The notes below the pieces were generated by a model, which saw nothing but the letters and a program-made list of their open reading frames with translations, made no database searches and had not been told where the DNA came from. Position numbers and translations under genes: made by a program. From assembly GCF_001563285.1 (NCBI RefSeq), contig NZ_CP005188.1, forward strand, positions 997,501 to 1,061,500: a stretch of 64,000 bases of DNA. Direction: 5' to 3'. Within the stretch, counting starts at the first letter, position 1; every line of letters begins with the position of its first letter. Of the stretch, positions 19,808 to 35,190 are shown piece after piece. The DNA comes from Sphingobium sp. MI1205 (GTDB taxonomy: Bacteria > Pseudomonadota > Alphaproteobacteria > Sphingomonadales > Sphingomonadaceae).

Positions 19808-20845
19808 TCAGCGGCGTGACGCGTCGTAAATGCCATCCAGAACTCCCGCCACTCGGACGAGATCCTCACAAGCGGGGTCGAAGCGCGGGGAACGAGCTAG
19901 CTGCTGCGCCCAGCCGTGCGCCATCTGTCCACCCCAGGCGTCGCCCGGCTGGCTCAGCGTCTCCCGGGTGGTGCCGCGGAACAGATGCGCTTCAAAATCA
20001 TAAAAAGACCCGCCGGTGTTACGGAAGGCGGCTCCGGCCCGATTGCCATAGAAATCGGCGGCGATGATGGCGTCCTGCCCTGCATGAAGGTTCCAGGAAC
20101 AAGCAATCCGCACCACCGTGCCGCTCGCAAGGCGCAGCGTGGCGACGCCATAATCCTCCACCTGGCCATCGCGGTCGTACAGGCGTTGTCCTTTGCCGAA
20201 CAGGTGGGCCTCGATCGTTTCCACCGCCGGGAAGTCCAATGTCCATAGCGCCAGGTCGATGAGGTGGACGCCGAGATCCATCATGCACCCGCCGCCTGAC
20301 AAACGGGGTTCATAAAACCAGGGCTTGTCCGGGCCATAGGCATTGTGAAAGGTCAGATCGACGGCATGGACCTCGCCGAGATCACCCGCATGCACCCTTT
20401 CTCGGATTGCGCGCATGCCAGCTGTGCCCCGATAGGAAAGATCGACGCCCAGCAGCCGGTCGGCGTCACGGGCCGCCTCGACCACCGCCCGTACTTCCAC
20501 CAGATCGCGGCCCAGCGGCTTCTGGCAGAATATGGGGATGCCGCGCTCCAGCGCCGCAATTGACTGTTCCGCGTGAAGAGCGCTCGGCGTGGCGATCACA
20601 ATGCCGTCCGGTTCGCTGTCGAGCAATGCATCGAGCGAATTCATTATCTCAGCGCCAGGGGCCAGCAGCGCGGCCGCGGTTGCAGTTTCCGACACTGGAT
20701 CAGCGATGGCCGCGACATCAATCAAACCCGTCGCCAGCATGGCTTCCATCCGGTTGCGCCCAATCCAGCCAGTCCCGAGAAAGCCGATGCGCGGACGAGC
20801 GAGCAGTGGCGCTTCGGCGGGTGTCAAGGGTATGGCCAGCGTCAT
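19808..20845 (-). CDS. Gfo/Idh/MocA family oxidoreductase
   Basis: The 345-residue protein has an N-terminal Rossmann domain (IGFLGTGWIGRNRMEAM), the EKP-like motif in FCQKPLGRDL (here QKP) and a C-terminal substrate domain with GGCMMDLGVHLIDLALW, where the His in GVHLIDL is the expected catalytic residue. Members oxidise sugars or inositols with NAD(P). Lying in an operon with inositol-phosphate synthase, it is a candidate inositol or NDP-sugar dehydrogenase. The change from EKP to QKP is unusual and seen directly. It overlaps the next upstream gene by four bases. Confidence 0.88.
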   Translation of the reverse strand: MTLAIPLTPAEAPLLARPRIGFLGTGWIGRNRMEAMLATGLIDVAAIADPVSETATAAALLAPGAEIMNSLDALLDSEPDGIVIATPSALHAEQSIAALERGIPIFCQKPLGRDLVEVRAVVEAARDADRLLGVDLSYRGTAGMRAIRERVHAGDLGEVHAVDLTFHNAYGPDKPWFYEPRLSGGGCMMDLGVHLIDLALWTLDFPAVETIEAHLFGKGQRLYDRDGQVEDYGVATLRLASGTVVRIACSWNLHAGQDAIIAADFYGNRAGAAFRNTGGSFYDFEAHLFRGTTRETLSQPGDAWGGQMAHGWAQQLARSPRFDPACEDLVRVAGVLDGIYDASRR

Positions 20846-21873
20846 GGGATTACGACCGCCTTCACAAAGCCGGCCGGCTTGTCGCGGGTCGCGTTGAGCG
20901 CCTCGTCGAGCCGCTCGAGCGGGTAGCGATGGGTGATAAGGGGTGTGAGGTCGAGCCTGCCCGATGCTACTGCTTCCACCGCTTCGCTTATGCCGTTTAC
21001 ATAGATGAGCGGGTTCCGCTCATGCGCGTTGATGACATCGATGCCACGCCAGTTCCACAGCCTCATATCAACCTGGCGCGGACCGTCCTGGTGATAGCCC
21101 GCGACGATCAGCTTGCCACGTTCGCCGACCAGTTCAGCCGCAAGGTCGAGCGGCCATTGTTTTCCGACGGCTTCGATGACACGCTCGCAGAATTGGCCAT
21201 CGGTCAAGTCCCGCACCCGATCGATGATCGCGTGGTGATCCTCCATGGCGACGCACTCCCTGGCTCCGTAACGGCAGGCGAGATCGAGTGACGAGGAGCG
21301 GCGCGAAATGGCAATGACGCGGGCGCCTGCATCGGTGGCAAGCCGGGTGAGGATCGCGCCCAGAAAGCCGATGCCGATGATCGCGACCGTTTGCCCGGCC
21401 CGGATGTCCGCACGGCGGAAGATGTTGAAAGCGCAGCCCAGCGGCTCGCCGGGGAAGGGAATGCCTGCGAGCGCAGGCGGCAGCGGAATTACCGCAGCTT
21501 CATCGGCAAGATCATATTCAGCGTAGCTGGCGTAGGAGAGGGCCGCGACCCGGTCTCCCGCCGCCACCGTCGTCACCCCGGGCCCGAGCGCGTCGACTAT
21601 GCCCCAACCCTCATGGCCGAGCGCGCCAGGCTCTGTGGGAAAGTGCTGCCAGTCGGGACCGGCCCAGGGGGTGAGGTTAGAGGCGCACACGCCGCAACCC
21701 TCAAGCTTGATGCGGACTTGGCCTGCGTCCGGTACTGGCAGAGGAAGATGATCGATGCGAATTTCTCCGGGCCCGGTGACCACCGCAGCGCGCATGGTAG
21801 CGACCGGCGTGGGTGCCGGATCGCCACCGCCCATTTCGGGAGCATGTGTGTCGGTCATCAGGAGATCAGTCAT
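20842..21873 (-). CDS. Zinc-type alcohol dehydrogenase (MDR family)
   Basis: The 343-residue protein has the GroES-like domain with catalytic-zinc residues in CGVCASNL and GHEGWG, and a Rossmann motif IIGIGFLGAILTRL. The four-cysteine structural zinc loop of classical ADHs is absent, as in the sugar-alcohol-related branch that includes bi-domain oxidoreductase-like enzymes. Its place between inositol-phosphate synthase and a Gfo/Idh/MocA enzyme suggests a second oxidation/reduction on a cyclitol or sugar; this is inference. Overlaps on both sides are ATGA. Confidence 0.85.
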   Translation of the reverse strand: MTDLLMTDTHAPEMGGGDPAPTPVATMRAAVVTGPGEIRIDHLPLPVPDAGQVRIKLEGCGVCASNLTPWAGPDWQHFPTEPGALGHEGWGIVDALGPGVTTVAAGDRVAALSYASYAEYDLADEAAVIPLPPALAGIPFPGEPLGCAFNIFRRADIRAGQTVAIIGIGFLGAILTRLATDAGARVIAISRRSSSLDLACRYGARECVAMEDHHAIIDRVRDLTDGQFCERVIEAVGKQWPLDLAAELVGERGKLIVAGYHQDGPRQVDMRLWNWRGIDVINAHERNPLIYVNGISEAVEAVASGRLDLTPLITHRYPLERLDEALNATRDKPAGFVKAVVIP

Positions 21874-23009
21874 TCCGCTGCCAGCGCCACTGCGCCCTCC
21901 CCAGTGATAAACGCTTCCAGCGCCTCATGGGCGCGATCATCCGTCATCTGTTGCGGCGGATGCTTGCAGAAATAGGCGGCCGCCGGATGGATCGGCCCGG
22001 CTAGCCCGCGGTCGAGCGCCAGCTTGGCGCAGCGGATCATGTCGATAGCGACGCCGGCGCTGTTGGGACTATCTTCGACCGATAGGCGCAGTTCGAGGTT
22101 CATGGGCACGCCGCCGAACAATTGCCCTTCCATGCGCAGGAAGCAGACCTTGTTGTCATTCTGCCATGCGACATAGTCGGACGGGCCGATATGGATATTA
22201 TCATCATCCAACCGCTGTTCCGCGACTGACTGAACGGCTTCCGTCTTGGAAATTTTCTTCGACCTTAGCCGTGTTCGGTTCGACATGTTGAGGAAGTCGG
22301 TATTGCCGCCGGTATTGATCTGATATGTGCGATCGAGCTTTACGCCGCGTTTGGCGAACAGGTCGGTGAGGACGCGGTGGACGATGGTCGCCCCGAGCTG
22401 CGCCTTTATATCGTCGCCGATGATCGGCACTCCCGCCCCGATGAAGCGATCCGCCCACTCAGGATCGCTGGCGATGAAGACGGGGATGTTATTAACAAAG
22501 GCCACGCCGGCCTCCAGAGCACATTCGGCGTAGAATTCGCTCGCCTGCTGCGACCCCACCGGCAGGTAATTGAGCAGCACGTCGATCCCCGCATCACGCA
22601 ACCGACCGACGATATCCTGCTTGTTCGGTTGGGTGGCATCGGCGGGCAGGAATGTGCGCTCGTCGGCATAGTCGCTCATATGTTCGGCATAGCCGTCAAG
22701 GATGCGGCCCATTTCCACAGTGACGCCGCTCGGCTTCACGTCGGCGCAGAAGACCTGCGTGCAGTTGGGCTTGGTGAAGATCGCTTCGGCAACGTCCTTG
22801 CCGAGTTTCCGTCGATCAATGTCCCAGGCGGCGGCAATCTCTATGTCGCAGGGACGATAGCCGCCCAAATCCCAGTGCATGAGGCCATGATGATCGTTGC
22901 TTTCCGCGCGGTAGTGCGACAGTCCCTGCACCAGCGAACTGGCGCAATTGCCGACGCCGACGATGCCGATCCGGATCGTCGGGCGTGGAGGTGGAGGGGT
23001 GAGTTTCAT
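21870..23009 (-). CDS. ino1: Inositol-3-phosphate synthase
   Basis: The 379-residue protein shows the family signatures: VGVGNCASSLVQGL for NAD binding, NYLPVGSQQASEFYAECALE, GDDIKAQLGATIVHR, INTGGNTDFLNM and SPNSAGVAIDMIRCAKLALD. The enzyme converts glucose-6-phosphate to myo-inositol-3-phosphate with an NAD cycle. The length and motifs fit the shorter bacterial/archaeal form. De novo inositol synthesis is uncommon in Proteobacteria, so its presence inside a glycan-type cluster points to an inositol-containing product. It is separated from the glycosidase gene upstream by 12 bp. Confidence 0.93.
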   Translation of the reverse strand: MKLTPPPPRPTIRIGIVGVGNCASSLVQGLSHYRAESNDHHGLMHWDLGGYRPCDIEIAAAWDIDRRKLGKDVAEAIFTKPNCTQVFCADVKPSGVTVEMGRILDGYAEHMSDYADERTFLPADATQPNKQDIVGRLRDAGIDVLLNYLPVGSQQASEFYAECALEAGVAFVNNIPVFIASDPEWADRFIGAGVPIIGDDIKAQLGATIVHRVLTDLFAKRGVKLDRTYQINTGGNTDFLNMSNRTRLRSKKISKTEAVQSVAEQRLDDDNIHIGPSDYVAWQNDNKVCFLRMEGQLFGGVPMNLELRLSVEDSPNSAGVAIDMIRCAKLALDRGLAGPIHPAAAYFCKHPPQQMTDDRAHEALEAFITGEGAVALAAE

Positions 23010-23021
23010 GACGCGTCTCCG

Positions 23022-23945
23022 TCAGGCGGTGCGGGCAATCGGCAGGCTTGCCGATAGCGGGGCGTAACGCTCGATCATCCAGGCGCAGAAATCTGCAAAA
23101 GCCTGCGGCTCGTGGACGGCGCTACTGTGATGCGGGGCGATGCCGAGATGCTCGGGGGTGAAGCAGAAAGTGACGGTGACGTCGAAATCCGCCAACGCCT
23201 CCATCTGCCGGTCGAACCAGTCGATGGCATTGGGGCGGAAGCTGTCGGCCCAGCTGAGGCCAGTGCGCAGATGACGGACGCCCAGGCGTTTCATCCAGGC
23301 GACGGCATCGTCAAGGCGGGGGTCTTCGAAATGGAACCATTGCATGAGGCCCATCTGGTCCGCGACTCTCGCATAATCGTCGAGTGAGGGCTTGGGCGTG
23401 CCGTCGGCGCGGATCAGGCCCATGTAGAAATGGCGGTAATAGCTCGATCCTTCCGCCTCGCGGTGACGCGTGGTTGCGCCCCATTCCTGTGGCAGGTCGT
23501 AGAGGCTGTACCAGAAGATGCGGGGCACCCGGTCGATCAGAAGTTGCGCGGTGCGGTTCACTCCGAAGACCTGCACTTCCTCCGCGCCGAATGAACCGAC
23601 GCCGACCTCCGTCACCCAGATCGGCTTGTCGGGCACGACCGCCTCTATCTCGGCGATCTTGTCGGGCCAGGCATGGATAGGCCACAAATTCCAGTCGAGC
23701 GGGAAGCCGTGCACCGCGACCACATCGACCGCGTCGAGCGCACCATGATCGCGCATCCGATTAACCCAATGCGGGTCGATCGGCGACATGCCGCCCAAGA
23801 CGCGGGTCACCGCCGGATTGGCATCGGCGATCGACGCGCCGGCTCGGCTTACCATGTCGGCATAGAGCGACCATTCAGGGTCGATCTCAAGGTCCCAGTG
23901 CGACTTGTTGTTGGGCTCGTTCCAGATCATCGCAGCTTCGATCAT
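23022..23945 (-). CDS. GH-A clan glycosidase (beta-xylosidase-like)
   Basis: The 307-residue protein has MIWNEPNNKSHWD near the start, where NEP carries the acid/base Glu of GH-A clan enzymes, and KPIWVTEVGVGSFG near 115, with the nucleophile Glu. Proteins of this kind are annotated as beta-xylosidase or GH39-like. No signal peptide is visible, so it appears cytoplasmic. The protein is shorter than typical GH39 enzymes and begins almost at the acid/base motif, so the N-terminal barrel strands may be missing or rearranged. The start overlaps the methyltransferase stop (ATGA at 23945). Confidence 0.75.
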   Translation of the reverse strand: MIEAAMIWNEPNNKSHWDLEIDPEWSLYADMVSRAGASIADANPAVTRVLGGMSPIDPHWVNRMRDHGALDAVDVVAVHGFPLDWNLWPIHAWPDKIAEIEAVVPDKPIWVTEVGVGSFGAEEVQVFGVNRTAQLLIDRVPRIFWYSLYDLPQEWGATTRHREAEGSSYYRHFYMGLIRADGTPKPSLDDYARVADQMGLMQWFHFEDPRLDDAVAWMKRLGVRHLRTGLSWADSFRPNAIDWFDRQMEALADFDVTVTFCFTPEHLGIAPHHSSAVHEPQAFADFCAWMIERYAPLSASLPIARTA

Positions 23946-24757
23946 GCCTTGGGTCCTTGTGCTGGATAGACGGCTGCCTTGCCCATCTCTGCCCCGAACG
24001 GCACGGGGGCGACGCGGCACAGATAGACTTCCTCTTCCGGTTGCGCCTCGATGGCGAAGCCCGCCGCCCGGAGCAGCGCCTGGGAGCAGGCCTTGTTGGG
24101 CGCCCACCAGTTGGTCCAGTCATGGGCAAACTTGCGCTCGATGAAATGCATGCGCGGAAATGCGGGATTGTCGAAGAAGGTCGGTGGCTGATTGGTGCCT
24201 GGCACATGGAAGGGATGATCCTCCGGCACCAGCAGCACATCGGGAGACCCCTGCTGCATGGTCTGAAACAGCAGCATGTCGCTTGCGACATGCTCACGGA
24301 TCAGGTCGAGTGCCAGCAGGGGATGCCGCAGATGGTAAAGGACTCCCATGAAGATGACGAGATCGAACCGGCGGCCAAGGCGGGCGACATCGTAGACCGA
24401 AAGGTTGCGGAACTCGATATCGGGAAAGCCGAGCGCTTCGGCGGCAAAGCGGGCCTGGGCGAGATAGCGATCGTCCGAATCAAGGCCGATCACCTCCGCA
24501 GCGCCCCGTCGCTTCATCTCGATTGCGTAAAAGCCGGCATTGCAACCGATGTCGAGGACTGATTTGCCGGTGAGATCAGCGGGCAAAGCATCGGCAAAGC
24601 GCGCGAACTTGAAGGCCGGATAATCGCCCAGGAAATGGTCGGGGGCCGTTTCGACCCCGCGGACGCGTAGATTGTGGAACCAGGGTCCAAGCTCGTCGAT
24701 CTGGCGGCGCAATTCCTCCTCTCCGGGGGTACGGGCGGCGATCTTCACTGTCTTCAT
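23942..24757 (-). CDS. SAM-dependent methyltransferase (CmoB-like fold)
   Basis: The 271-residue protein has motif I VLDIGCNAGFYAIEM, an acidic loop GLDSDDRYL and motif IV-like VIFMGVLYHLRHPL. The overall pattern (WFHNLRVRGVETAPDHFLGD upstream of motif I) resembles CmoB and, from memory, a family catalogued as TIGR04290. Because it sits with sugar and inositol enzymes rather than tRNA genes, O-methylation of a cyclitol or sugar is more likely than tRNA modification, but this is inference. Both ends overlap neighbours by four bases. Confidence 0.85.
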   Translation of the reverse strand: MKTVKIAARTPGEEELRRQIDELGPWFHNLRVRGVETAPDHFLGDYPAFKFARFADALPADLTGKSVLDIGCNAGFYAIEMKRRGAAEVIGLDSDDRYLAQARFAAEALGFPDIEFRNLSVYDVARLGRRFDLVIFMGVLYHLRHPLLALDLIREHVASDMLLFQTMQQGSPDVLLVPEDHPFHVPGTNQPPTFFDNPAFPRMHFIERKFAHDWTNWWAPNKACSQALLRAAGFAIEAQPEEEVYLCRVAPVPFGAEMGKAAVYPAQGPKA

Positions 24758-25377
24758 GCAGGCACCTCGTTCAAACGAGTCACGCGCCCGCCGTTCGGGT
24801 CGATGACCATGGTGGTGATCGACCCGGGATCGACCTCAAATCGCAAGAGATTGTCGAGGCTGAGGCCGAGATAATGGGCGACCACTCCCCGGATGATGTC
24901 GCAATGAGTGACGCACAGCAGCGTTGCCCCTGGATGCTCGGCAGCGAAGCGTTCCATGTGATGAACGGCGCGCTCGACGGCTGCACCCATCGTCTCGCCT
25001 CCCGGCGCGCGGCTGATCGAGCGGTAGCCATTCCATTCGTGCCAACGTGGGTCGCTTTCCAGTTCGGCGAAGGCAAGTCCGTTCCATTCGCCGAAGTCCA
25101 CCTCGTCCAGGTCGGGCACGATCACGATGTCCAATCCGCGATCGGCGGCGATAATCGACGCAGTCTCGACTGCGCGCGCGCGGGGGCTAGCATGGATCAC
25201 GTTTAGCGAACCCATGCCCGGCCAGTTTGCCAAGCCCGCTGCCTGAACGCGACCGTCGTTGCTCAGTGGGGAAGCGCCCGCGCGCCCGCTCAGCAGTCGG
25301 CCGAATTCGCCATGCGTTCCGTGCCTTACCAGATGAAAGGTCGTGGGCGGCTCATTAGGGGAGGACAGCATCAACAT
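24754..25377 (-). CDS. Histidine phosphatase family protein
   Basis: The 207-residue protein has the RHG motif FHLVRHGTHGEF, the second arginine in ASPRARAVETA, an acidic EVDFGEWNG and the second catalytic histidine in LLCVTHCDIIRG. These are phosphoglycerate-mutase-fold phosphatases acting on small phospho-compounds. As first gene of the arm containing inositol-3-phosphate synthase, it could release free inositol or another phosphate intermediate, which is inferred. The start at 25377 lies only about a dozen bases past a candidate EcfG -10 element, with no clear ribosome-binding site, so a leaderless message is possible. Confidence 0.85.
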   Translation of the reverse strand: MLMLSSPNEPPTTFHLVRHGTHGEFGRLLSGRAGASPLSNDGRVQAAGLANWPGMGSLNVIHASPRARAVETASIIAADRGLDIVIVPDLDEVDFGEWNGLAFAELESDPRWHEWNGYRSISRAPGGETMGAAVERAVHHMERFAAEHPGATLLCVTHCDIIRGVVAHYLGLSLDNLLRFEVDPGSITTMVIDPNGGRVTRLNEVPA

Positions 25378-25388
25378 AGATGCTGCCT

Positions 25389-25414
25389 AACAACGTTAAG
25401 ATAATTAAAGTTCC
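25389..25414 (-). promoter_or_regulatory. Candidate EcfG (general stress sigma) promoter, left arm
   Basis: Read on the minus strand, GGAAC (25414-25410) is followed after 18 bases by GTT (25391-25389). The consensus for alphaproteobacterial EcfG promoters is GGAAC, 16-17 bases, then CGTT; here the base before GTT is T. It lies just upstream of the histidine phosphatase start. A CGTT with a 14-base gap also occurs. Confidence 0.55.
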
Positions 25415-25526
25415 ATATCCGTAACGCGCACAATGAAGAAGAGGATAACATTACAAACTTATGTTTATGTAATATAACCAGTGTTGTTTTTCGAAGTTAC
25501 ATGCCGTTCAGATGGGTGAGTTTAGT

Positions 25527-25552
25527 GGAACTGGTGGGTAGAAGAAGATGTT
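25527..25552 (+). promoter_or_regulatory. Candidate EcfG promoter, right arm
   Basis: GGAAC at 25527-25531 is followed after 18 bases by GTT at 25550-25552 (TGTT), the same spacing as the opposed element at 25389-25414 and the element at 33328. Transcription would start near 25560, giving a leader of about 70 bases before the GTG start at 25629. Confidence 0.55.
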
Positions 25553-25628
25553 CCTTCTGCCATCGACGAAGTTCTTGAGGGGCAATGATTGCCCTCACGA
25601 TCTGAACACTCATTACAGGGGATTGGCC

Positions 25629-26741
25629 GTGGAGAAAATACTTGTCACGGGCGGCGCCGGTTTCATCGGCCGCGCCGTCTGTCGCGAATTGCTGGGGCGG
25701 GGGTACGAGGTGCGTGTGCTCGACTGCCTGGTCGAGCAAGTTCACGGCGAAGGGGAACGGCCTGCGGATCTGGACAACCAAGTGGAGCTTCAGCGCGGCG
25801 ACCTTCGTAATGGTCATGCCGTTGAGAAGGCGTTGCAAGGGATCGATGCCGTCGTCCATCTCGCCGCCGAAGTGGGTGTCGGCCAGTCGATGTACGAGGT
25901 CGAACGCTACACGTCCGTCAATGATGTTGGCACGGCGGTTTTGTTCGAGCGTTTGATCGATCGCCCGGTGCGGCGCGTCGTCACCGCGTCCTCGATGAGC
26001 ATCTATGGTGAAGGGCTTTACCGCGACGTCGATGGTAAAATTGTCCAGGATGCCGAGCGCGGCGCGGTCGGAGACGGGCAGAAGAATTGGGAACCGCTTG
26101 ACGGGGCCGGACGACCGTTGACCCCTGTCGCCACGCCGGAATGGAAGCGCCCCCAGCTCGCCTCAATTTACGCGCTCAACAAATATGTCCAGGAACGCAT
26201 CACCCACATCATGACCGCGCCCTATGGCATGGAGGGCGTTTGCCTGCGCCTCTTCAACGTCTACGGCCCCGGCCAGGCGCTTTCAAACCCTTATACCGGC
26301 GTGCTGGCCATCTTCGCCGCCCGGTTGCTCAACGGCCAGAGCCCGATGATTTTCGAGGATGGCGAGCAGCGGCGCGATTTCGTCCATGTGAGCGATGTGG
26401 CGCGCGCCTTTGCTGACGCGCTGGAACTGCCCCAGGCGGCGGGTGGCACCTTCAACATCGGCTCCGGGCAGGATCGTTCCGTCACCGAAGTCGCGCAGAA
26501 GCTGGCCGCCGCGATGGGCCGCGAAGATATAGAACCGGAAATCGTCGGGAAGGCGCGGTCGGGCGACATTCGCCACTGCTTCTGCGACACGCGACTTGCC
26601 GAAGATGTGCTTGGCTTTCGTGCGCGGCAGGAGTTCAGCCAGGGCCTTGCCGAACTGGCCGAATGGGTGGCGCTGCAGACCGCCGACGATCGCGTCAATC
26701 AGGCGCGCGCCGAGCTAGAGGCAAGGGGGCTGGTGGCATGA
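25629..26741 (+). CDS. NAD-dependent NDP-sugar epimerase/dehydratase
   Basis: The 370-residue extended SDR has the N-terminal motif ILVTGGAGFIGRAVCRELL, the catalytic region TASSMSIYGEG and YALNKYVQERI (YxxxK), and the conserved RLFNVYGPGQALSNPYTG and RRDFVHVSDVARAF. The last two resemble dTDP-L-rhamnose 4-epimerase-like enzymes (WbiB type). GTG at 25629 is chosen since it starts the Rossmann strand and AGGGG lies upstream; the frame is open back to 25548. It is the first gene of the right arm; the next gene overlaps its stop. Confidence 0.88.
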   Translation: MEKILVTGGAGFIGRAVCRELLGRGYEVRVLDCLVEQVHGEGERPADLDNQVELQRGDLRNGHAVEKALQGIDAVVHLAAEVGVGQSMYEVERYTSVNDVGTAVLFERLIDRPVRRVVTASSMSIYGEGLYRDVDGKIVQDAERGAVGDGQKNWEPLDGAGRPLTPVATPEWKRPQLASIYALNKYVQERITHIMTAPYGMEGVCLRLFNVYGPGQALSNPYTGVLAIFAARLLNGQSPMIFEDGEQRRDFVHVSDVARAFADALELPQAAGGTFNIGSGQDRSVTEVAQKLAAAMGREDIEPEIVGKARSGDIRHCFCDTRLAEDVLGFRARQEFSQGLAELAEWVALQTADDRVNQARAELEARGLVA

Positions 26742-27823
26742 GCCGCGCGGACAGACGGCCCGTCTTGGTGACGGGTGGCGCCGGCTTCATCGGCTGCAAC
26801 ATCGCCGACCGGCTGGCGAGCGAAGGCGAGGAAGTTCTCATCTATGACTCGCTCGCTCGCCCCGGCGTCGAGCGCAACCTCGCTTGGCTGGAGGAGCGGC
26901 ACGGTGCCGCTATCATATCGGAGATAGGCGACACACGAGAGATGAGCCGCGTCGCCAGGCTGGTGGGCAGGGCCAAGGCCGTGTTTCATATGGCCGCACA
27001 GGTGGCGGTGACGACCAGCTTCATTGATCCGCGCGTGGATTTCGAAGTCAATGTGCTCGGAACGCTCAACGTGCTTGAAGCGGCGCGCCATTGCGCCACG
27101 CCGCCGCCTGTGATCTTCGCCTCCACCAACAAGGTCTATGGCAATCTTGAGGATCTGGAGATGCCGCTGGTCGATGGCGCCTACAAGCCCACCGATCCTA
27201 CCATCCGCGCGCACGGTATCGACGAAAGCCGCCCGCTCGATTTTCACACGCCCTATGGATGCTCCAAGGGCGCGGCAGATCAATATGTCCTCGACTATGC
27301 GCGTAGCTTCGGCGTTCCGGCCGCCGTGCTGCGGATGAGCTGCATCTATGGTCAGCGGCAAATGGGAACGGAGGATCAGGGCTGGGTCGCCCATTTCCTC
27401 ATCAGCGCGCTCCAGGGACGAAGCATCATTGTCTATGGCGATGGCTGCCAGGTGCGCGACATTTTGGATGTGAGCGACGCAGTGGACGCCTATCTCGCAG
27501 TCTGGCGCAACATCGATCGGCTCGCTGGCCAAGCCTTCAATCTGGGCGGCGGCGTCGAGAATGCCGTTAGCCTGCGACAGATCCTCGCCTTCATCGGCGA
27601 CTATCTCGAACGCCCGCTGGCATTGGAGACGTCGGAATGGCGCGCGGGTGACCAGCGCTATTTCGTGGCGGATACGCGGATGTTGACGGAAGCGACCGGC
27701 CTTCATGTGCGCAAGCCTTGGCGCGAAGGGGTGGTGGATCTGGCCGACTGGCTCATCGCCGAGCGGCGCCAGCCGACGCAGAATGTGGAAGCGTCGGCCC
27801 GGCAGACGGCGAGGGCGATGTGA
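26738..27823 (+). CDS. NDP-sugar epimerase, CDP-paratose 2-epimerase-like
   Basis: The 361-residue extended SDR shows VLVTGGAGFIGCNIADRL, HMAAQVAVTTSFIDPR, ASTNKVYGN and TPYGCSKGAADQYV (YxxxK), then RMSCIYGQRQMGTEDQGWVA. The STNKVYG and GTEDQGWVAHF motifs are characteristic of CDP-paratose/tyvelose 2-epimerases and their relatives, so it probably epimerises C2 of a nucleotide sugar; the exact sugar cannot be inferred. It begins in an ATGA overlap with the first epimerase and ends in a TGATG overlap with the glycosyltransferase. Confidence 0.88.
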   Translation: MSRADRRPVLVTGGAGFIGCNIADRLASEGEEVLIYDSLARPGVERNLAWLEERHGAAIISEIGDTREMSRVARLVGRAKAVFHMAAQVAVTTSFIDPRVDFEVNVLGTLNVLEAARHCATPPPVIFASTNKVYGNLEDLEMPLVDGAYKPTDPTIRAHGIDESRPLDFHTPYGCSKGAADQYVLDYARSFGVPAAVLRMSCIYGQRQMGTEDQGWVAHFLISALQGRSIIVYGDGCQVRDILDVSDAVDAYLAVWRNIDRLAGQAFNLGGGVENAVSLRQILAFIGDYLERPLALETSEWRAGDQRYFVADTRMLTEATGLHVRKPWREGVVDLADWLIAERRQPTQNVEASARQTARAM

Positions 27824-28902
27824 TGGCGGGCGGGCATCTTTTGCTCACCGCAGATGCCGTCGGCGGGGTATGGCAATATTCGACCGATCTGGCGGCCGCG
27901 CTCCAGCCCTTTGGTTGGGAAGTGACGCTGGCCACGATGGGTCCGCCCTTGAGCGAGGTGCAGAGGAGCGAAGCCGCAGCCATCCCCAACCTGCAGGTCG
28001 TGGAAACGGGGCTAGAGCTGGACTGGCTGGCTACCGACGCCGCGTCTGTGCTCGCTGCCGAAACGCGGCTTGCCGAGTTGGCGGCCGATCTGCGGGTTGA
28101 CCTGGTGCAGCTTCACACGCCTGCGCTGGTGAGTGCGGGACGCTATGCCTGTCCCGTCGTTGCCGTGCTGCACAGCTGCGTAGCGACCTGGTGGTCGGCT
28201 GTGAAGGAAGGCCCGATGCCCGCCGACTTCGCCTGGCGCTCAGGCTTGGTGCAGCACGGCCTGAAGCGCGCCATGCTGGCGGTCGCTCCAAGTGCGGCTT
28301 TCGCGCAGATGGCGCACCTCCACTATGGCGTGGTGCCGCTCGCGGTCCATAACGGCCGCTTCCTCCTCGTCCGCCCGCGCGCGATGGAGGACAGCGTCTT
28401 CACTGCGGGGCGTCTCTGGGACGAAGGCAAGAATCTGGGCGTTCTGGACGAAGTGGCCGATCGTCTCGCCTTGCCTTTCAACGCTGCTGGTCCGGTCAGT
28501 GGGCCAGGTGGCGCATCGATCAGATTCCGCGCGCTGCAGCCCCTTGGCACGCTCGACACGGGAGCGCTAGCGGATCAGCTCGCCAGCAAACCGCTGTTCG
28601 TCTCCGCCGCCCTTTACGAACCGTTCGGCTTGGCGGTGCTGGAGGCGGCGATCGCTGGTTGCGCGCTCATCCTCTCCGACATTCCGACTTTTCGCGAACT
28701 GTGGGACGGCGCGGCAATCTTCGTGGACCCCAACGATGCGCACGGCTTTGTTTCGGCGATCAACGAGACGATCGAAAATGTCGCCGCCCGGCAAGAGGCG
28801 GGCAGGCGGGCGCAGAAACGCGCGCGCCGCTATACACCAGCAGCCATGGCCGCGACGATGGCTCGGCACTACGCGGCGCTCCAGCGGAGGGCTGCGGCAT
28901 GA
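27823..28902 (+). CDS. GT4-type glycosyltransferase
   Basis: The 359-residue protein has a GT-B fold. The N-terminal half starts LLLTADAVGGVWQYSTDLAA (donor-acceptor loop of GT4 enzymes), and the C-terminal half has TAGRLWDEGKNLGVLDEVAD and the E-x7-E motif in LYEPFGLAVLEAAIAGCALI, which binds the nucleotide sugar. It transfers a sugar in the cytoplasm. The start shares a base with the preceding stop (TGATG), and its stop overlaps the first CgeB gene, so translation of the whole arm is coupled. Confidence 0.9.
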   Translation: MAGGHLLLTADAVGGVWQYSTDLAAALQPFGWEVTLATMGPPLSEVQRSEAAAIPNLQVVETGLELDWLATDAASVLAAETRLAELAADLRVDLVQLHTPALVSAGRYACPVVAVLHSCVATWWSAVKEGPMPADFAWRSGLVQHGLKRAMLAVAPSAAFAQMAHLHYGVVPLAVHNGRFLLVRPRAMEDSVFTAGRLWDEGKNLGVLDEVADRLALPFNAAGPVSGPGGASIRFRALQPLGTLDTGALADQLASKPLFVSAALYEPFGLAVLEAAIAGCALILSDIPTFRELWDGAAIFVDPNDAHGFVSAINETIENVAARQEAGRRAQKRARRYTPAAMAATMARHYAALQRRAAA

Positions 28903-30014
28903 AGATCCGCTACTTCACCCATTCGCTGCTGTCCTGCTGGAACCATGGCAACGCCCATTTCCTGCGAGGCCTTCTGCGCGAACTCGGCGCCATGGGGCAT
29001 GACGTGCTCGCGCTGGAGCCGGAAGGCAATTGGAGCCTGTCCAACCTGCTCGCCGATCATGGCGAACAAGGACTCTTGGCGTTCCGCACCGCCTATCCCG
29101 AGCTTGCGACCCATAGCTATGGCCCGGACGCCGACCTCGACGAGATGCTCGATGGAGCGGACCTCGTCATCGTTCACGAGTGGAACGACCCTGCGCTGGT
29201 CTCCCGGATCGGCGCCAAGCGGGCAGGGGGAGGGGCTTTCACCCTGCTGTTCCATGACACGCATCATCGCGCCGTGTCCGACCCGGAGGCAATCCGCGCT
29301 TTCGACCTGTCGGGCTTCGACGGCGTCCTCGCGTTCGGCGAGGCGCTGTCGGACGTCTATCGCCGCTGGGGCTGGGGTAGCAGGGTCTGGACCTGGCATG
29401 AAGCGGCCGACATCCGACACTTTCATCCCCCAGAGCAGGAAGGCGAGCGCCACGGCCTCGTCTGGGTCGGCAACTGGGGGGATGGCGAGCGGACTGCCGA
29501 GCTGGAGGACTTTCTTTTCCGGCCGGCGCAAGAGGCGCAGCTTGCCCTGGATATTTACGGCGTGCGCTATCCGGCAGACGCCCTCGCTATGCTGAAGCGC
29601 TATGGCGCCGCCTATCATGGATGGGCGGCCAATGCGGCGGCCCCCATGATCTTCGCCCGGCATCTTGCGACCGTCCATGTGCCGCGCCGCTATTATACGC
29701 AGTTGCTGCCTGGAATCCCGACTATCCGCGTGTTCGAGGCGCTTGCCTGCGGCATTCCGCTCCTATCCGCGCCCTGGAGCGACAGCGAGGGGCTGTTCCG
29801 TCCGGGCAGGGATTTCCTCTTCGCCCGCGATGGCGCGGAGATAACACGCCACCTCCGCGCCATCAGCGCCGATCCCGATCTGCGTTCCTCGCTCGTTCGC
29901 AGTGGCCTTCAAACCATTCGCAGCCGTCACAGCTGCGCCCATCGCGCCCGTGAGCTGATGGACATTGTGGAAAGCCTCAACACGCCATTCCAAATCGTCA
30001 GGAGCGTTGCATGA
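28899..30014 (+). CDS. CgeB-type glycosyltransferase 1
   Basis: The 371-residue protein opens with MKIRYFTHSLLSCWNHGNAH and contains LAFGEALSDVYRRWGWGSRV, HEAADIRHFHP, LVWVGNWGDGERT, and a C-terminal TIRVFEALACGIPLLSAPWS. The layout fits the CgeB family (a GT-B glycosyltransferase with a C-terminal Glyco_trans_1_2 domain, named for Bacillus spore-coat CgeB). It is the first of three tandem members that share the layout but differ strongly in sequence. Acceptor and donor are unknown. Coupled to neighbours by ATGA at both ends. Confidence 0.82.
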   Translation: MKIRYFTHSLLSCWNHGNAHFLRGLLRELGAMGHDVLALEPEGNWSLSNLLADHGEQGLLAFRTAYPELATHSYGPDADLDEMLDGADLVIVHEWNDPALVSRIGAKRAGGGAFTLLFHDTHHRAVSDPEAIRAFDLSGFDGVLAFGEALSDVYRRWGWGSRVWTWHEAADIRHFHPPEQEGERHGLVWVGNWGDGERTAELEDFLFRPAQEAQLALDIYGVRYPADALAMLKRYGAAYHGWAANAAAPMIFARHLATVHVPRRYYTQLLPGIPTIRVFEALACGIPLLSAPWSDSEGLFRPGRDFLFARDGAEITRHLRAISADPDLRSSLVRSGLQTIRSRHSCAHRARELMDIVESLNTPFQIVRSVA

Positions 30015-31117
30015 AGATCGCCTTTTACGGCTCCAGCCTGCTTTCCTCCTACTGGAACGGCGCTGCCACCTATTATCGTGGCATTTTGCGTGAGCTGGCG
30101 CAGCGGGGCCATCAGGTCAGCTTCTACGAGCCCGACGCCTTCGACCGGCAGCAGCATCGCGACATCGATCCACCCGATTGGGCGCGGGTGGTGGTCTATC
30201 CCGCAACGCCCGAAGCGTTGCTGCGTGTGATGGATGAGGCTGCGGAGGCCGATGTGGTGGTGAAGGCGAGCGGCGTGGGCGTATTCGACGATGAATTGTT
30301 GGAAGGGGTGATGCAGCGCGCGCGACCGCATGCGCTGCGACTCTTCTGGGATGTCGATGCCGCCGCTACGCTCGACGAGATGCGTGCCCGTCCCGACCAT
30401 CCGGTGCGGCGCGCGCTGCCCGGCCTCGACCTGGTTCTGACCTATGGTGGGGGCGAACAGGTGGTCAGTGCCTATCAAGCGATGGGGGCGGCGGAGTGCT
30501 TTCCCATTTACAACGCGCTCGATTCGGAGACCCACCATCCCGTCGCACCCGATCCGCGCTTTTCGGCTGATCTCGCGTTCCTGGGCAATCGCTTGCCTGA
30601 CCGCGAACAGCGGGTGGAGGAGTTTTTCCTGAAGCCTGCCGCCCGCTTGCCCGACCAGCGCTTCCTGATCGGCGGCAATGGCTGGGAGACGAAGGCGATG
30701 CCCGCCAATGTCCGCCATCGCGGCCACGTCTACACGGCCGAGCATAACGCCTTCAACTGCACTCCACGCGCCGTGCTCAACGTAGCGCGCGACAGCATGG
30801 CGCATATCGGCTTTTCCCCCGCCACCCGCGTGTTCGAGGCGGCAGGAGCCGGTGCTTGCCTCATCACCGATGCCTGGGAAGGAATAGAATTGTTCCTGAA
30901 GCCGGGCGAGGAAGTGCTGGTGGCGCGCGACGGTCAGGATGTCGCGGATCACCTAGCAAGTCTGACGCCTGAACGCGCCAGGAGGATCGGACAGGCGGCG
31001 CTCGCCCGCGTCCTTGCCGAGCATTCCTATAAACTTCGCGGTGCTCAAATTGACGTAATCCTGCGCGATCGCTGCGCGAGGCGGCGTCAGTTCCAGCATG
31101 TCATGGAGGGAGCATGA
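30011..31117 (+). CDS. CgeB-type glycosyltransferase 2
   Basis: The 368-residue protein starts MKIAFYGSSLLSSYWNGAAT and contains YYRGILRELAQRGHQVSFYE, DLVLTYGGGEQVV, DLAFLGNRLPDREQRVEEFF and the C-terminal ATRVFEAAGAGACLITDAWE. It has the same GT-B/CgeB plan as the flanking genes, including an identical opening logic (MK-h-h-h-x-SLLSxxWNG) that suggests duplication. Overlaps of four bases on both sides indicate coupled translation. Confidence 0.83.
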   Translation: MKIAFYGSSLLSSYWNGAATYYRGILRELAQRGHQVSFYEPDAFDRQQHRDIDPPDWARVVVYPATPEALLRVMDEAAEADVVVKASGVGVFDDELLEGVMQRARPHALRLFWDVDAAATLDEMRARPDHPVRRALPGLDLVLTYGGGEQVVSAYQAMGAAECFPIYNALDSETHHPVAPDPRFSADLAFLGNRLPDREQRVEEFFLKPAARLPDQRFLIGGNGWETKAMPANVRHRGHVYTAEHNAFNCTPRAVLNVARDSMAHIGFSPATRVFEAAGAGACLITDAWEGIELFLKPGEEVLVARDGQDVADHLASLTPERARRIGQAALARVLAEHSYKLRGAQIDVILRDRCARRRQFQHVMEGA

Positions 31118-32193
31118 AACTCGTCGTCCTCGGCCTCAGCCTCTCTTCCTCATGGGGCAACGGCCATGCCACCACCTTCCGCGCACTGCTCTCGGCTTTC
31201 GCCGATCGGGGGCACGAGATCCTGTTCCTGGAACGCGACGTCCCATGGTATGCCAGCCAGCGCGACCTGATCGACCCGCCCTATTGCCGTCTGCAATTCT
31301 ATCAGGATCTGGTCGACCTGGACCACTGGCGATCGGAGATAGCGGCGGCGGACGCGGTCATGGTCGGCTCCTATGTGCCCGATGGCATAGCGGTCGGCGA
31401 TTATGTCCAGCGGCATATGCGGGGCGTCGCCGCCTTCTACGACATCGACACGCCGGTCACGCTTGCCAGCCTGGATGAGGGATGCTGCGAATATCTCTCG
31501 CCCGGCCTCATCCGGGGCTATGATCTCTATTGCTCCTTTACCGGTGGCCCAACACTCGACCGGATCGAGCAGCATCATGGCTCCCCCATGGCGCGGGCGC
31601 TTTACTGCTCAGTAGATGTAAGCGCTTATCGGCCAATGGAGGTGCCCAAGCGCTGGGACCTGTCTTATCTCGGGACTTACAGTCCGGATCGTCAGCCAAC
31701 GCTTGAGCGACTGCTGATCCAACCTGCGCGGTTGATGCCGGAGAAACGCTTTGTGGTGGCGGGGCCGCAATATCCCGACGATATCGAGTGGCCGGCCAAT
31801 GTCGAGCGGATTGACCATTTGCCGCCCAGCGAACACGCAGCCTTCTATTCCGCGTCCCGCTACACGCTGAACGTCACGCGCGCCGACATGATCGCGGCCG
31901 GCTGGTCGCCTTCGGTCCGGCTGTTCGAGGCGGGCGCCTGTGGCACGACGATCATCTCGGACGTGTGGACGGGGCTTGAACATCTGCTGACGCCCAATCG
32001 CGAGATCCTGTTCGCCTGGAACAGCGAGCAGGTGATTGTGGCGCTAGATGAAGGCCGCGCCTCTGTCGGCGCGGCGGCCCGCAGTCGCATTCTGGCGGAG
32101 CACGCGTCGCAAGCCCGAGCGCGGGAACTGGAAATCTATCTGCGAGATGCTGCTGTAATGCAGTCGCAGGCGCGGATGGCGGCAGCAGAATGA
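31114..32193 (+). CDS. CgeB-type glycosyltransferase 3
   Basis: The 359-residue protein begins MKLVVLGLSLSSSWGNGHAT and contains FYDIDTPVTLASLDEG, YDLYCSFTGGPTLDRIE, WDLSYLGTYSPDRQPTLERL and SVRLFEAGACGTTIISDVWT. It is the best match of the three to the CgeB consensus; the conserved pattern SW-GNGHAT near the N-terminus and E in LFEAGACG would contact the donor. It overlaps the second CgeB gene (ATGA) and is followed after 16 bp by the UDP-glucuronate decarboxylase gene. Confidence 0.85.
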   Translation: MKLVVLGLSLSSSWGNGHATTFRALLSAFADRGHEILFLERDVPWYASQRDLIDPPYCRLQFYQDLVDLDHWRSEIAAADAVMVGSYVPDGIAVGDYVQRHMRGVAAFYDIDTPVTLASLDEGCCEYLSPGLIRGYDLYCSFTGGPTLDRIEQHHGSPMARALYCSVDVSAYRPMEVPKRWDLSYLGTYSPDRQPTLERLLIQPARLMPEKRFVVAGPQYPDDIEWPANVERIDHLPPSEHAAFYSASRYTLNVTRADMIAAGWSPSVRLFEAGACGTTIISDVWTGLEHLLTPNREILFAWNSEQVIVALDEGRASVGAAARSRILAEHASQARARELEIYLRDAAVMQSQARMAAAE

Positions 32194-32209
32194 CAAGGAC
32201 GATCGGCTG

Positions 32210-33256
32210 ATGACGAAGAACAAGAATGTAAGCTTGGTCGCTGGCGGGGCCGGCTTCATCGGCTCCCATTTGTGCCGAGCGTTGCTCGATCGCGGCGACG
32301 ATGTGATTTGCATCGACAATCTGCAAACCTCGCGCGAGGTCAATCTGGAGATGCTGGAAGGCCATCGCGCCTTTACCTTCTTCCGCGCCGACATCGTCGA
32401 TCCGCTGCCTGATGCGGTTACGCGGCGGCGGGACATCAGCCGAATCTACAATCTCGCCTGTGCCGCGTCCCCGCCCCAATATCAGGCGGACCCGGAGCAT
32501 ACGATGCTGACGAGTGTGCTGGGCACCGACCGGCTGTTGCGGCTGGCGGAGCAATGTGGCGCGCGTTTCCTGCTCACCTCCACCAGCGAAGTCTATGGTG
32601 ATCCCGAAGCGCATCCGCAGCGAGAGGATTATCGCGGCTGGGTGAACTGCACTGGCCCGCGCGCCTGCTATGACGAAGGAAAGCGCGCGGCCGAAGCTAT
32701 GTCATTCGACTTTGCTCGCCTCGGACGCGCTGACGTTCGCGTGGCGCGCATCTTCAATACTTATGGGCCCAACATGCACCCTGATGATGGCCGCGTTATT
32801 TCAAACCTCGTCTGCCAGGCGCTTTCGGGGCAAGATATCACCATCTACGGCGACGGATCGCAGACGCGCAGCTTCTGCTTCGTTTCGGACATGGTGGATG
32901 GGCTGCTCCGGTTGATGGAAGCCCCTGTGCCGGACCTGGCGCCCGTCAATCTGGGTAATCCGGAAGAACATCGAATCCTCGACCTGCTCGACCATGTCGT
33001 TGCAGAGACCGGCACGATCTCGGACGTGAGGTTCACGCCGCTTCCCGTCGATGATCCGCGTCGGCGGCGCCCCGACATCAAGCGGGCGCGCAACTTGTTG
33101 GGATGGGAACCACAGGTCTCGCTCAAGGACGGATTGGCGATAACCTGCGCCTTCTTTGCCAAGGAAATCGGCATTCCAGCGCGGCGCAATAACATCGGAA
33201 GAGCATCGAATGTCAGTAGGGCTTACTCCTCCAGCGCTAGCGTGGCCGCAGAATGA
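32210..33256 (+). CDS. UDP-glucuronate decarboxylase-like SDR
   Basis: The 348-residue protein shows VAGGAGFIGSHLCRALLDRG, the UXS hallmark YNLACAASPPQYQADPE, TSTSEVYGDPEAHPQ and GPRACYDEGKRAAEA (YxxxK), and RIFNTYGPNMHPDDGRVISN. UDP-glucuronate decarboxylase makes UDP-xylose from UDP-glucuronate. It fits the beta-xylosidase-like gene in the left arm and suggests a pentose in the product. The last 25 residues (after KEIGIPARRN) are a non-conserved tail. It is the last gene of the right arm. Confidence 0.9.
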   Translation: MTKNKNVSLVAGGAGFIGSHLCRALLDRGDDVICIDNLQTSREVNLEMLEGHRAFTFFRADIVDPLPDAVTRRRDISRIYNLACAASPPQYQADPEHTMLTSVLGTDRLLRLAEQCGARFLLTSTSEVYGDPEAHPQREDYRGWVNCTGPRACYDEGKRAAEAMSFDFARLGRADVRVARIFNTYGPNMHPDDGRVISNLVCQALSGQDITIYGDGSQTRSFCFVSDMVDGLLRLMEAPVPDLAPVNLGNPEEHRILDLLDHVVAETGTISDVRFTPLPVDDPRRRRPDIKRARNLLGWEPQVSLKDGLAITCAFFAKEIGIPARRNNIGRASNVSRAYSSSASVAAE

Positions 33257-33327: not shown

Positions 33328-33353
33328 GGAACAGCTCCCCCGGGTGCTTTGTT
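33328..33353 (+). promoter_or_regulatory. Candidate EcfG promoter of the SRPBCC/dehydrogenase operon
   Basis: GGAAC at 33328-33332 and GTT at 33351-33353 are 18 bases apart (TGTT after 17), matching the spacing of the two elements in the 25.4-25.6 kb region. It lies about 30 bp upstream of the ATG at 33384, leaving room for a leader with AAGGATC as ribosome-binding site. Position, spacing and spot-on -35 together make it the best EcfG candidate in the window. Confidence 0.65.
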
Positions 33354-33383
33354 GACGCGATACCCATTCAGCAAGGATCAGCC

Positions 33384-33989
33384 ATGGCCGACACGATCGA
33401 TCCCGCGCGTGCGGACGACGCTCCGCTTGCGACTTCCAAACATGTTTCCGCTGCGGTGGACAGCGCGTCCGATGCGCTGATCGAAACTCCCAGCGGCGCT
33501 GCCGACACGCTTGTCGGCTGCACCGTCACCATTAATCGTCCGCGCGCTGAACTTTTCGCCTATTGGCGCGATCTCACGCAGCTTCCGACCTTCATGGAGA
33601 ATGTCGAGCAGGTAGAGAGGCTCGACGACAAACGATCGCGCTGGGTGGTCAAGGCACCAGCCGGGAAAACCGTCGAGTGGATATCGGCGATTACCGAGGA
33701 ACGGGACGGCGAGGTCATCGCCTGGGCGTCGGAGGACGGCGCCGATGTGCCCAATAGCGGCCGGGTCGACTTCCGCGACGCGCAGGGCGATCGCGGCACG
33801 ATCGTCACCGCGACCATCCTCTACGATCCGCCCGCCGGCATTATCGGCAAAGTGATTGCCAAAATGTTTCAGCGCGAACCGGCGATCCAGGCAAGGCGCG
33901 ACCTACGTCGCTTCAAGCAGCTCATGGAGACTGGCGAAATCGCCACTGGCGCGCGTAATCGCCGCCTCCAGGAAGAGGGGAAGAACTGA
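33384..33989 (+). CDS. SRPBCC (START/Bet v1-like) protein
   Basis: The 201-residue protein has a variable N-terminus and from about residue 48 a helix-grip domain ([35 protein letters not shown]...), the form of the polyketide-cyclase/START superfamily member often called cyclase/dehydrase and found with stress genes in Sphingomonadaceae. It probably binds a hydrophobic ligand. Its stop shares bases with the ATG of the next gene (TGATG), forming an operon of three genes or more. Confidence 0.85.
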
Positions 33990-35185
33990 TGCGTGCTCTT
34001 GCCTGGCATGGAAAACATGATGTGCGCGTCGATACAGTCGATGATCCGGAAATCCTCAACCCGCGCGATGCGATCATCAAGGTGACCGCGACCGCGATCT
34101 GCGGATCGGACCTTCATTTGTATGATGGCTATATCCCGACGATGCAGTCGGGCGATATTCTCGGCCATGAATTTATGGGTGAGGTGGTCGAGGTCGGCCC
34201 CAAATCGACGTTGCAGAAGGGGCAGCGTGTCGTGGTGCCCTTCACCATTTCGTGCGGCGCCTGCTATCATTGTTCGAAGCACCAATATTCGGCATGCGAC
34301 AACGGCCTGCCCGCCGACAATCAGGATATCGCACAGCAATTATACGGCCAGCCCATGGCTGGGCTGTTCGGCTACAGCCACATGACTGGCGGCTATTCGG
34401 GCGGACAGGCCGAATATGTCCGCATTCCGTTCAGCGATGTCGGACCAATCGTCATTCCCGAGGGAGTTGAAGACGAAAAGGTGCTGTTCCTTTCCGATAT
34501 CCTCCCCACCGGATGGATGGCGGCGGAAAATGCGCAGATTGAGCCGGGCGACACCATCGCCGTCTGGGGCTGCGGCCCGGTCGGGCTGTTCGCGGTCCAG
34601 TCGGCATTCCTGATGGGCGCGGAGCGGGTCATCGCGATCGACCATTTTCCCCATCGCCTCGAACTCGCCAAGCGCTTCGGCGCGGAGACGATCAATTTCG
34701 AGGATAGCAGGACCTACGAAGCGCTGATGGAGATGACCGGCGGCATCGGTCCTGACGCCTGCATCGACGCGGTCGGGTTGGAGGCACACGGCTTCTTCGT
34801 TGACAATGTGATCGACCAGATCAAGGCATCGACTTTCCTCGGCACCGACCGCGCCCATGCGATCCGCCAGGCGATCATCGCGTGCCGAAAGGGCGGACGC
34901 GTGTCGATGCCGGCAGTCTATGGCGGTTTCGTCGATAAATTTCCACTGGGTGCGTTGATGGAGAAGGGGCTGACGCTCAAGACCGGCCAGACCCATGTCC
35001 AGCATTATATGCCCGGCCTGCTCCAGGCGATCCTGGAGGGTAAGATCGATACGACCTTCCTGATCAGCCACACCCTCCCGCTCGAACAGGCGCCGCAGGG
35101 ATACAAGATGTTCCACGACAATCAGAATGAGGTGACCAAGGTCGTGCTGAAGCCCGGCATGGAAACCCGAATGTCGGCGGAGTAA
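33989..35185 (+). CDS. Zinc-dependent dehydrogenase, formaldehyde-dehydrogenase-like
   Basis: The 398-residue MDR enzyme shows catalytic-zinc residues in [13 protein letters not shown] and GHEFMGEV, a structural-zinc lobe [16 protein letters not shown], and the long insertion (GLPADN... to [17 protein letters not shown]) of glutathione-independent formaldehyde-dehydrogenase-like proteins. The Rossmann motif is [14 protein letters not shown]. Substrate is not known; family members act on aldehydes or alcohols. Overlaps the preceding gene and is followed after 5 bp by an SDR gene, in one stress operon. Confidence 0.88.
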
Positions 35186-35190
35186 CCGAC

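Follow-up and report, generated by a model that had tools for sequence, protein, structure and literature searches.

A 64,000-nucleotide (nt) stretch of Sphingobium sp. MI1205 (the window; contig NZ_CP005188.1, positions 997,501 to 1,061,500) carries a cluster of 13 open reading frames (ORFs) at 19808-33256, split into two divergent arms. The left arm encodes a histidine phosphatase (HP), a methyltransferase (MT), a glycosidase (GH), an inositol-3-phosphate synthase (INO1), and two dehydrogenases (ADH and GFO), and the right arm two sugar epimerases (EP1 and EP2), a glycosyltransferase (GT4), three CgeB-type proteins (CgeBa, CgeBb, and CgeBc), and a predicted UDP-xylose synthase (UXS), as detailed in Table 1. 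Comparison with related loci demonstrated that the 13 genes are a real co-inherited unit. We propose, with a probability of about 0.5, that their products assemble a small oligosaccharide, methylated and xylose-containing, in the cytosol and are induced by general stress. The product would contain inositol in the cluster type represented by the window (type A) and may function as a stress protectant. The chemical steps, the role of the glycosidase, and the stress induction are all predicted from sequence.

A first-pass annotation of the window had described thirteen divergently arranged genes, and both this arrangement and its family names, with which Pfam and NCBIfam agree for both arms, were upheld. 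Nine of the 11 within-arm junctions are overlaps of 4 nt, in line with the near-universal overlaps it had reported, and at the remaining two the genes are separated by 12 and 16 nt. The “fixed stoichiometry” that it read from the overlaps does not follow from them; translational coupling does. With the called starts, the divergent gap between the arms is 170 nt. The permuted form of GH, the existence of two cluster types, and the predicted stress-type promoters had all escaped the first-pass annotation.

A scan with MT returned 130 relatives, and the analysis used the 80 best-scoring loci among them (L005-L084), so loci distant from the MT of the window are under-represented. The loci were fetched via MT, whose frequency is thus given by construction, whereas the frequencies of GH, INO1, and the other genes are not. 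Many loci end at contig edges or at the 10-kb flank, and some pairs with identical MT DNA stem from the same or nearly the same genome (L003/L005, L007/L112, L050/L093, L086/L114, and L091/L115). All 13 genes were present in 26/80 related loci, and all seven right-arm genes in 48/80. Where both partners were present, they were adjacent in every case for EP1-EP2 (61/61), GT4-CgeBa (63/63), CgeBa-CgeBb (63/63), CgeBb-CgeBc (62/62), and CgeBc-UXS (53/53), and in 73/74 cases for GH-MT. EP2 and GT4 were adjacent in 51/63 loci, with a radical SAM gene between them in 11 and other genes between them in L084. Co-occurrence with preserved order in other genomes, which the first-pass annotation had suggested as a check, was therefore observed, the order of the right arm being near-invariant across the 80 loci. 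The closest relatives of the MT of the window are Novosphingobium and Sphingobium records, and the hosts of the cluster include Sphingomonadales, Paracoccus, Methylobacterium, Acetobacteraceae, Roseomonadaceae, and Brevundimonas. Single contigs also came from Methylocaldum, Acidobacteriota, and Verrucomicrobiota, and the Acidobacteriota locus shows MT alone. Many environmental bacteria retain the cluster as one block, and its distribution is patchy: MT was found in 14/289 genomes of a class sample and in 14/398 of a phylum sample, all 14 of the latter belonging to the same class. The source genome has a size of 4.62 Mb.

Judging from its sequence and modelled structure, GH is a circularly permuted clan GH-A glycosidase, in which acid/base strand 4 comes first and strands 1-3 come last. 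The protein (307 residues) begins with MIEAAMIWNEPNN, which places the clan GH-A acid/base motif at residues 8-12; the usual place of this motif is the end of strand 4. The predicted structure (predicted local distance difference test, pLDDT, 83.7; predicted template modelling score, pTM, 0.86) is an eight-stranded triosephosphate isomerase (TIM) barrel with strands at residues 4-7, 47-50, 75-79, 109-114, 142-146, 199-201, 225-231, and 255-261. In canonical numbering these are b4, b5, b6, b7, b8, b1, b2, and b3, and not the canonical order that starts with b1. The acid/base and nucleophile glutamates after strands 4 and 7 correspond to E10 and E113, which were invariant in 32/32 sequences, and WNEPNN and W-x-[TS]-E-x-G were conserved at the motif level in 76/76 permuted GH ORFs (L001 and L003 included). 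An interpretation of GH as an N-terminally truncated fragment was rejected, since the missing strands sit at the C-terminus. A conserved C-terminal tail that ends near RDERL(A/S)(A/G)ER extends GH to 333-347 residues in 10/76 ORFs (L012, L013, L015, L016, L020, L025, L028, L029, L030, and L031).

The permutation was also evident from comparison with unpermuted proteins. PslG, the clan GH-A glycosidase of the Psl operon (PDB 5bx9 and 4zn2), shares the WNEPN motif with GH and differs from it in not being permuted. When the homologue from L082 was rotated to start at b1, it was colinear with PslG over residues 5-285 (E 2.5e-7, 33.7 bits) with the WNEPN motif aligned, compared with 16.7 bits (E 0.038) in its native order. 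A profile of 32 GH sequences matched PslG in swapped segments, with 201-295 on chain positions 25-129 (a weak match of 8.3 bits) and 3-155 on 132-302 (22.0 bits). The GH of the window in native order gave no PslG match in a PDB search at E 1. A natural unpermuted homologue (GH′) was found in L085, L087, and L090, where the segment matching GH residues 198/199-295 lies upstream of that matching 2/7-185 in one open frame. Scanning rotations of GH against these three proteins gave a peak at 185-197 with 113-123 bits, as opposed to 84-95 bits in native order, and rotated GH aligned with canonical GH′ at 29-31% over 304-310 columns. The GH′ of L090 had no match in a PDB sequence search at 0.1, and kinship with PslG is thus carried by the permuted proteins, namely the rotated L082 homologue and the profile. 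The Pfam match of the GH of the window to PF11790 is restricted to strands b4-b8, whether the sequence is rotated or in native order. Foldseek and VIA-align returned many TIM barrels (a designed barrel, GH20, GH84, and others) with similar scores, which confirms the barrel and not the clan. Among the Foldseek matches listed, TMq ranged from 0.19 to 0.40 and PslG was absent; these matches name no family because sequential aligners do not follow the permutation. In clan GH-H, the TIM barrel of glycoside hydrolases has likewise undergone circular permutation in nature, between GH13 and GH70. This case differs in concerning another clan and alpha-glucan enzymes, whereas the GH of the window is a clan GH-A member in a biosynthetic cluster.

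The form of the glycosidase separates two cluster types. Among 111 loci, canonical GH′ was found in 7 (six genomes), permuted GH in 94, both in none, and neither in 10. INO1 and HP were present in 0/7 canonical-GH′ loci, and INO1 in 80/94 permuted-GH loci. The six canonical-GH′ genomes, as well as G300, which shows the same arrangement with GH′ out of view, had no INO1 match genome-wide. This sister cluster (type B) retains the core of EP1, EP2, GT4, CgeBa-c, UXS, MT, and a GH-A domain; the latter is homologous to the GH of the window but, unlike it, is unpermuted and fused to the N-terminus of EP2. In a quick tree of MT (76 rows), the distribution of the cluster types needs two changes, and none of 500 shuffles was as low. 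Placement of the six canonical rows in one clade was not rejected (p value of the approximately unbiased test, p-AU, 0.589). The tree is unrooted and of mostly modest support, with L005-L053 thinned to every third and L001-L004, L086, L091, and L092 omitted.

A link between INO1 and the cluster was also seen at the genome level. In a sample of the order, INO1 was present in 20/20 genomes with MT and in 80/276 without it (Fisher 9e-11, a value made too small by relatedness), and in the class sample in 6/14 versus 23/275 (p 0.001). Among 25 genomes of the same genus, the source genome included, INO1 was found in exactly the three with MT above the cut-off. The statement in the first-pass annotation that INO1 is uncommon in Proteobacteria holds for the class sample (29/289) and does not for this order (100/296). 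No INO1 was in view in 19 loci of L005-L084, and 18 of these sit in genomes with INO1 elsewhere (12/12 and 6/7). Loss of INO1 was accordingly rejected for clusters without a visible copy. L089 (genome G187) is an exception to the pairing of permuted GH with INO1; its permuted GH adjoins MT, an additional CgeB, and a nucleotidyltransferase.

Radical SAM proteins of the TIGR04295 family (B12_rSAM_oligo; the member in L059 scored 723 bits, cut-off 400) were matched in 6/7 canonical-GH′ loci and in 19/94 permuted loci. In clusters of the Methylobacterium type and in most of those with canonical GH′, their genes separate EP2 from GT4; the window has none there. Another accessory element, in which a sugar nucleotidyltransferase-like protein is paired with a fourth CgeB-like one, was observed near MT in clusters of several families (L061, L064, L070, L073, L079, L081, L084, L089, L097-L100, L102, L104, L105, and L107).

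Since the core persists in genomes without INO1, MT and the glycosyltransferases of type B are independent of home-made inositol. The linear route suggested previously, in which inositol is oxidized, methylated, and then glycosylated with a pentose, is not supported, as the core persists without INO1 and HP. The broader idea of a single co-inherited pathway to a glycoconjugate, using UDP-xylose and having a branch for inositol, is supported. The components common to both types must build the common part of the product. UXS would make UDP-xylose, EP1 and EP2 may yield one or two further nucleoside diphosphate sugars by 4- and 2-epimerization, and GT4 and the three CgeB-type GT-B enzymes would link approximately four sugars. 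The sugar chain would be O-methylated by MT, and the GH-A enzyme may act in the cytosol to trim, proofread, recycle, or release it. Inositol would be supplied in type A by INO1 and HP from glucose-6-phosphate via inositol phosphate, either as part of the glycan or as its acceptor, and ADH and GFO may adjust the stereochemistry of the inositol. A more specific version, which we consider less likely than not, is that the product is an undescribed stress protectant, a methylated xylose-containing glyco-inositol, and that an acceptor switch through INO1 and HP pairs with the fused canonical versus the free permuted glycosidase.

The enzyme families fit these roles to different degrees. In the PDB, UXS was most similar to human UXS1 (4gll and 2b69) with 337 bits, and the next molecule scored 144 bits. 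No UXS-specific NCBIfam model was matched above its cut-off, and the UDP-xylose synthase activity named in the first-pass annotation is predicted from human UDP-glucuronate decarboxylase 1 as the closest solved relative. EP2 matched 1orr over residues 9-339, with the next molecule at 108 bits. EP1 is by sequence a GalE-like protein with an insert: its best PDB match scored 151 bits, the best stretch was 166-343, and other GalE-like chains matched 2-136. A PDB sequence search with CgeBb at 0.01 gave no matches. The score of MT (379.2 bits) exceeds the curated TIGR04290 cut-off of 300, and its nearest solved structure in the PDB sequence search was EvdMO1 (55.9 bits), an orthosomycin sugar O-methyltransferase. 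The two dehydrogenases ADH and GFO form an optional module, which was complete in 49/111 loci. Neither was assigned to inositol catabolism by the models applied, GFO scoring 98 bits against the IolG model TIGR04380 (cut-off 355) and ADH 93 bits against the scyllo-inosose dehydrogenase IolM model NF041097 (cut-off 450), both well under the cut-off.

INO1 passes the PF01658 gathering cut-off (126.9 bits versus 27), and the mycothiol INO1 model is the nearest to it. Together with GT4 and a phosphatase, this would be compatible with a mycothiol-like thiol cofactor pathway. We consider such a pathway highly improbable, as the score of INO1 against the equivalog TIGR03450 (448 bits) lies under the cut-off of 638, the core persists without INO1, and neither an MshB-like deacetylase nor an MshC-like cysteine ligase is among the 13 proteins, the rest of the genome not having been searched for them. 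The cluster has INO1 and GT4 in common with the mycothiol pathway and differs from it in its enzyme families and in having no MshB or MshC among the 13. The methylmannose polysaccharide pathway shares cytosolic glycosyltransferases, a methyltransferase, and a glycosidase with the cluster, and its enzyme families differ. A glycosyl-inositol lipid, for which INO1 and HP would supply a headgroup of the phosphatidylinositol type for decoration by the glycosyltransferases, is also quite unlikely. INO1 does adjoin glycosyltransferases, and its wide occurrence in the order (100/296) implies further roles in these bacteria; against a lipid speak the persistence of the core in INO1-less genomes and the lack of a CDP-alcohol phosphotransferase among the 13 proteins and seven scanned accessory proteins.

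The proposed oligosaccharide would be soluble and made in the cytosol, which is the most parsimonious reading of the gene content. Each of the 13 proteins of the window has at most one hydrophobic segment, and no membrane exporter of the Wzx/Wzy or ABC kind was found at the cluster level. Among 65 clusters with at least eight core genes, 62 had no other ORF with at least four hydrophobic segments inside their span, according to a crude Kyte-Doolittle analysis. The lack of an export gene pointed out in the first-pass annotation thus extends to the relatives, and an intracellular product, one of the options it listed, is also supported. The main rival to a cytosolic oligosaccharide is a surface glycan or exopolysaccharide, whose repeat unit would be exported by a distant Wzx/Wzy or ABC system, with GH acting like PslG. 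It would be consistent with PslG being the best solved relative of GH and with nearby ORFs resembling polysaccharide pyruvyl transferases (7 loci) and F420 dehydrogenases (11 loci), which were named by eye with no model above its cut-off; PF13524 proteins are also often located in cell-surface clusters. We nevertheless regard a surface glycan as unlikely, given 13 genes without a membrane or lipid-carrier gene and the 62/65 clusters without an unrelated ORF with four transmembrane segments.

Stress induction is suggested by the heads of both arms, which carry motifs of predicted sigma-EcfG (general stress) type that recur at operon heads in several families. The EcfG consensus in Sphingopyxis, as given in PMC7083833, is GGAAC-N16-CGTT with a flexible -10 element (variants CATT and TGTT), and the pattern GGAAC-N16/17-[CT]GTT is found at both arms of the window. 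In the relatives, the strict motif was located upstream of EP1 in 26/61, HP in 14/66, and MT in 10/81 (the distant methyltransferase of L004 being counted among the 81). The corresponding numbers were 0-3 at other cluster genes and 0 for EP1, HP, and MT with a mirrored-motif control, and the whole-locus density was 0.009 per 310 nt. The 10 loci with the motif upstream of MT either lack HP or have it at a distance of 1.4 kb or more, so that MT would start its own unit and the motif would follow the operon head. A looser pattern was present in 31/54 divergent regions (L001 and L003 included), compared with 1.4 expected from shuffles of bases, not dinucleotides. Further instances of the motif were seen in L105-L107, at INO1, and in L103, at EP1, and the source genome contains a NepR match with an EcfG-type motif approximately 260 nt upstream. 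A third EcfG-type motif was observed at 33328-33353, past the right arm.

Several observations weigh against the proposed stress-induced pathway. The motif was not enriched genome-wide (67 sites versus 139 for the mirrored control), which makes a single site weak evidence, and it was present in 1/9 Erythrobacteraceae, 1/8 Paracoccaceae, and 0/12 Methylobacteriaceae loci (two artefact rows dropped). The family-wise tally of 47/108 still includes the artefact rows L010, L065, and L071, which are to be dropped. EcfG-dependent genes of S. melonis Fr1 include glycosyltransferases #3505-3509 (PMC6599016), and a search of its main text for the words epimerase, inositol, xylosidase, and CgeB gave no matches. 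Regarding the inositol branch, G187 has a permuted GH with no INO1 match in its genome, and the genome of L048 also has no INO1 match; the latter is a metagenome bin, and the contig stops approximately 100 nt past GH. The relatives are, moreover, non-independent data points.

The enzyme families themselves are already known, and NCBIfam lists TIGR04290 and TIGR04295 as hypothetical equivalogs with model lines shown without function or pathway. The existence of models for two families implies that the cluster has at least partly been noticed by curators, and “oligo” in B12_rSAM_oligo suggests that they suspected an oligosaccharide. The MT of the window belongs to TIGR04290, and a radical SAM gene is lacking between EP2 and GT4. 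Literature searches revealed no description of the cluster by title among the matches listed, none of Rta_06860/TIGR04290, and, for circularly permuted glycoside hydrolases, none on clan GH-A by title; a search of the Ramlibacter genome paper (PMC3164672) turned up neither inositol nor Rta_068. Within the scope of these searches, three findings are new: a clan GH-A enzyme that is naturally permuted, its mutual exclusivity with the unpermuted fused form, and the connection with INO1. If the proposed pathway is true, a sugar metabolite under stress control, of which no literature description was found, is common to bacteria of many genera, and the two cluster types provide a genetic handle on what inositol adds. 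The version with a glyco-inositol and an acceptor switch would be a rare case of a natural TIM-barrel permutation tied to a pathway change. The native permuted GH and its unpermuted sister homologue make it possible to test how permutation affects a catalytic barrel.

The coordinates of the features are collected in Table 1. The start of GH probably needs correction to 23945, where it overlaps the stop of MT. EP1 most likely starts at the GTG given in the table, to which its start was moved because the called ATG falls inside the promoter motif.

Table 1. Genes and promoter motifs of the cluster, in window coordinates.
Feature	Description	Position	Strand	Matches
GFO	Gfo/Idh/MocA-family dehydrogenase, optional module	19808..20845	-	PF22725, PF01408
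ADH	zinc-type dehydrogenase, optional module	20842..21873	-	PF08240, PF00107
INO1	inositol-3-phosphate synthase, nearest mycothiol INO1 model	21870..23009	-	PF01658 126.9 bits
GH	predicted circularly permuted clan GH-A glycosidase, 307 residues, b4-b8 then b1-b3	23022..23945	-	
MT	TIGR04290 (meth_Rta_06860) methyltransferase	23942..24757	-	379 bits, cut-off 300
HP	histidine phosphatase superfamily branch 1	24754..25377	-	PF00300 143 bits
Left promoter motif	sigma-EcfG-type, GGAAC-N17-TGTT, facing left arm	25389..25414	-	recurs in relatives
Right promoter motif	sigma-EcfG-type, GGAAC-N17-TGTT, facing right arm	25527..25552	+	recurs in relatives
EP1	UDP-sugar 4-epimerase-like short-chain dehydrogenase/reductase (SDR) with insert	25629..26741 (start inferred; called 25548)	+	PF01370
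EP2	CDP-tyvelose 2-epimerase-like SDR	26738..27823	+	PDB 1orr 263.7 bits
GT4	GT4 glycosyltransferase	27820..28902	+	PF13439, PF00534
CgeBa	GT-B-type protein	28899..30014	+	PF13524
CgeBb	GT-B-type protein	30011..31117	+	PF13524
CgeBc	GT-B-type protein	31114..32193	+	PF13524
UXS	predicted UDP-glucuronate decarboxylase (UDP-xylose synthase)	32210..33256	+	human UXS1 4gll 337 bits

Further genes were observed around the cluster. In L013, L026, L029, L030, L036, and L049, a small conserved protein is encoded just upstream of MT (near 8.4-9.9 kb), and a possible heptosyltransferase-like protein, named by eye, lies upstream of MT in L026, L029, L030, and L049. An NCBIfam scan of the MT-upstream proteins of L029 and L030 gave no matches. 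In the window, the right arm is followed at 33328-35976 by an SRPBCC protein, a zinc ADH, and an SDR. The same trio adjoins GFO in L015, L016, L020, L025, and L042, and L035 and L037 have two of the three in the vicinity of the cluster. The left flank at 10334-19070 gives the impression of a stress-gene neighbourhood, with a HisKA_2-type histidine kinase, a Crp-type regulator, a GH65 enzyme (13267-15405), an EamA transporter, an SDR, and DUF1003 and DUF4142 proteins. Further upstream, in the region 4239-10127, a large pyrroloquinoline quinone-dependent dehydrogenase (7605-10127) is encoded near cytochrome c and COX2-like proteins.

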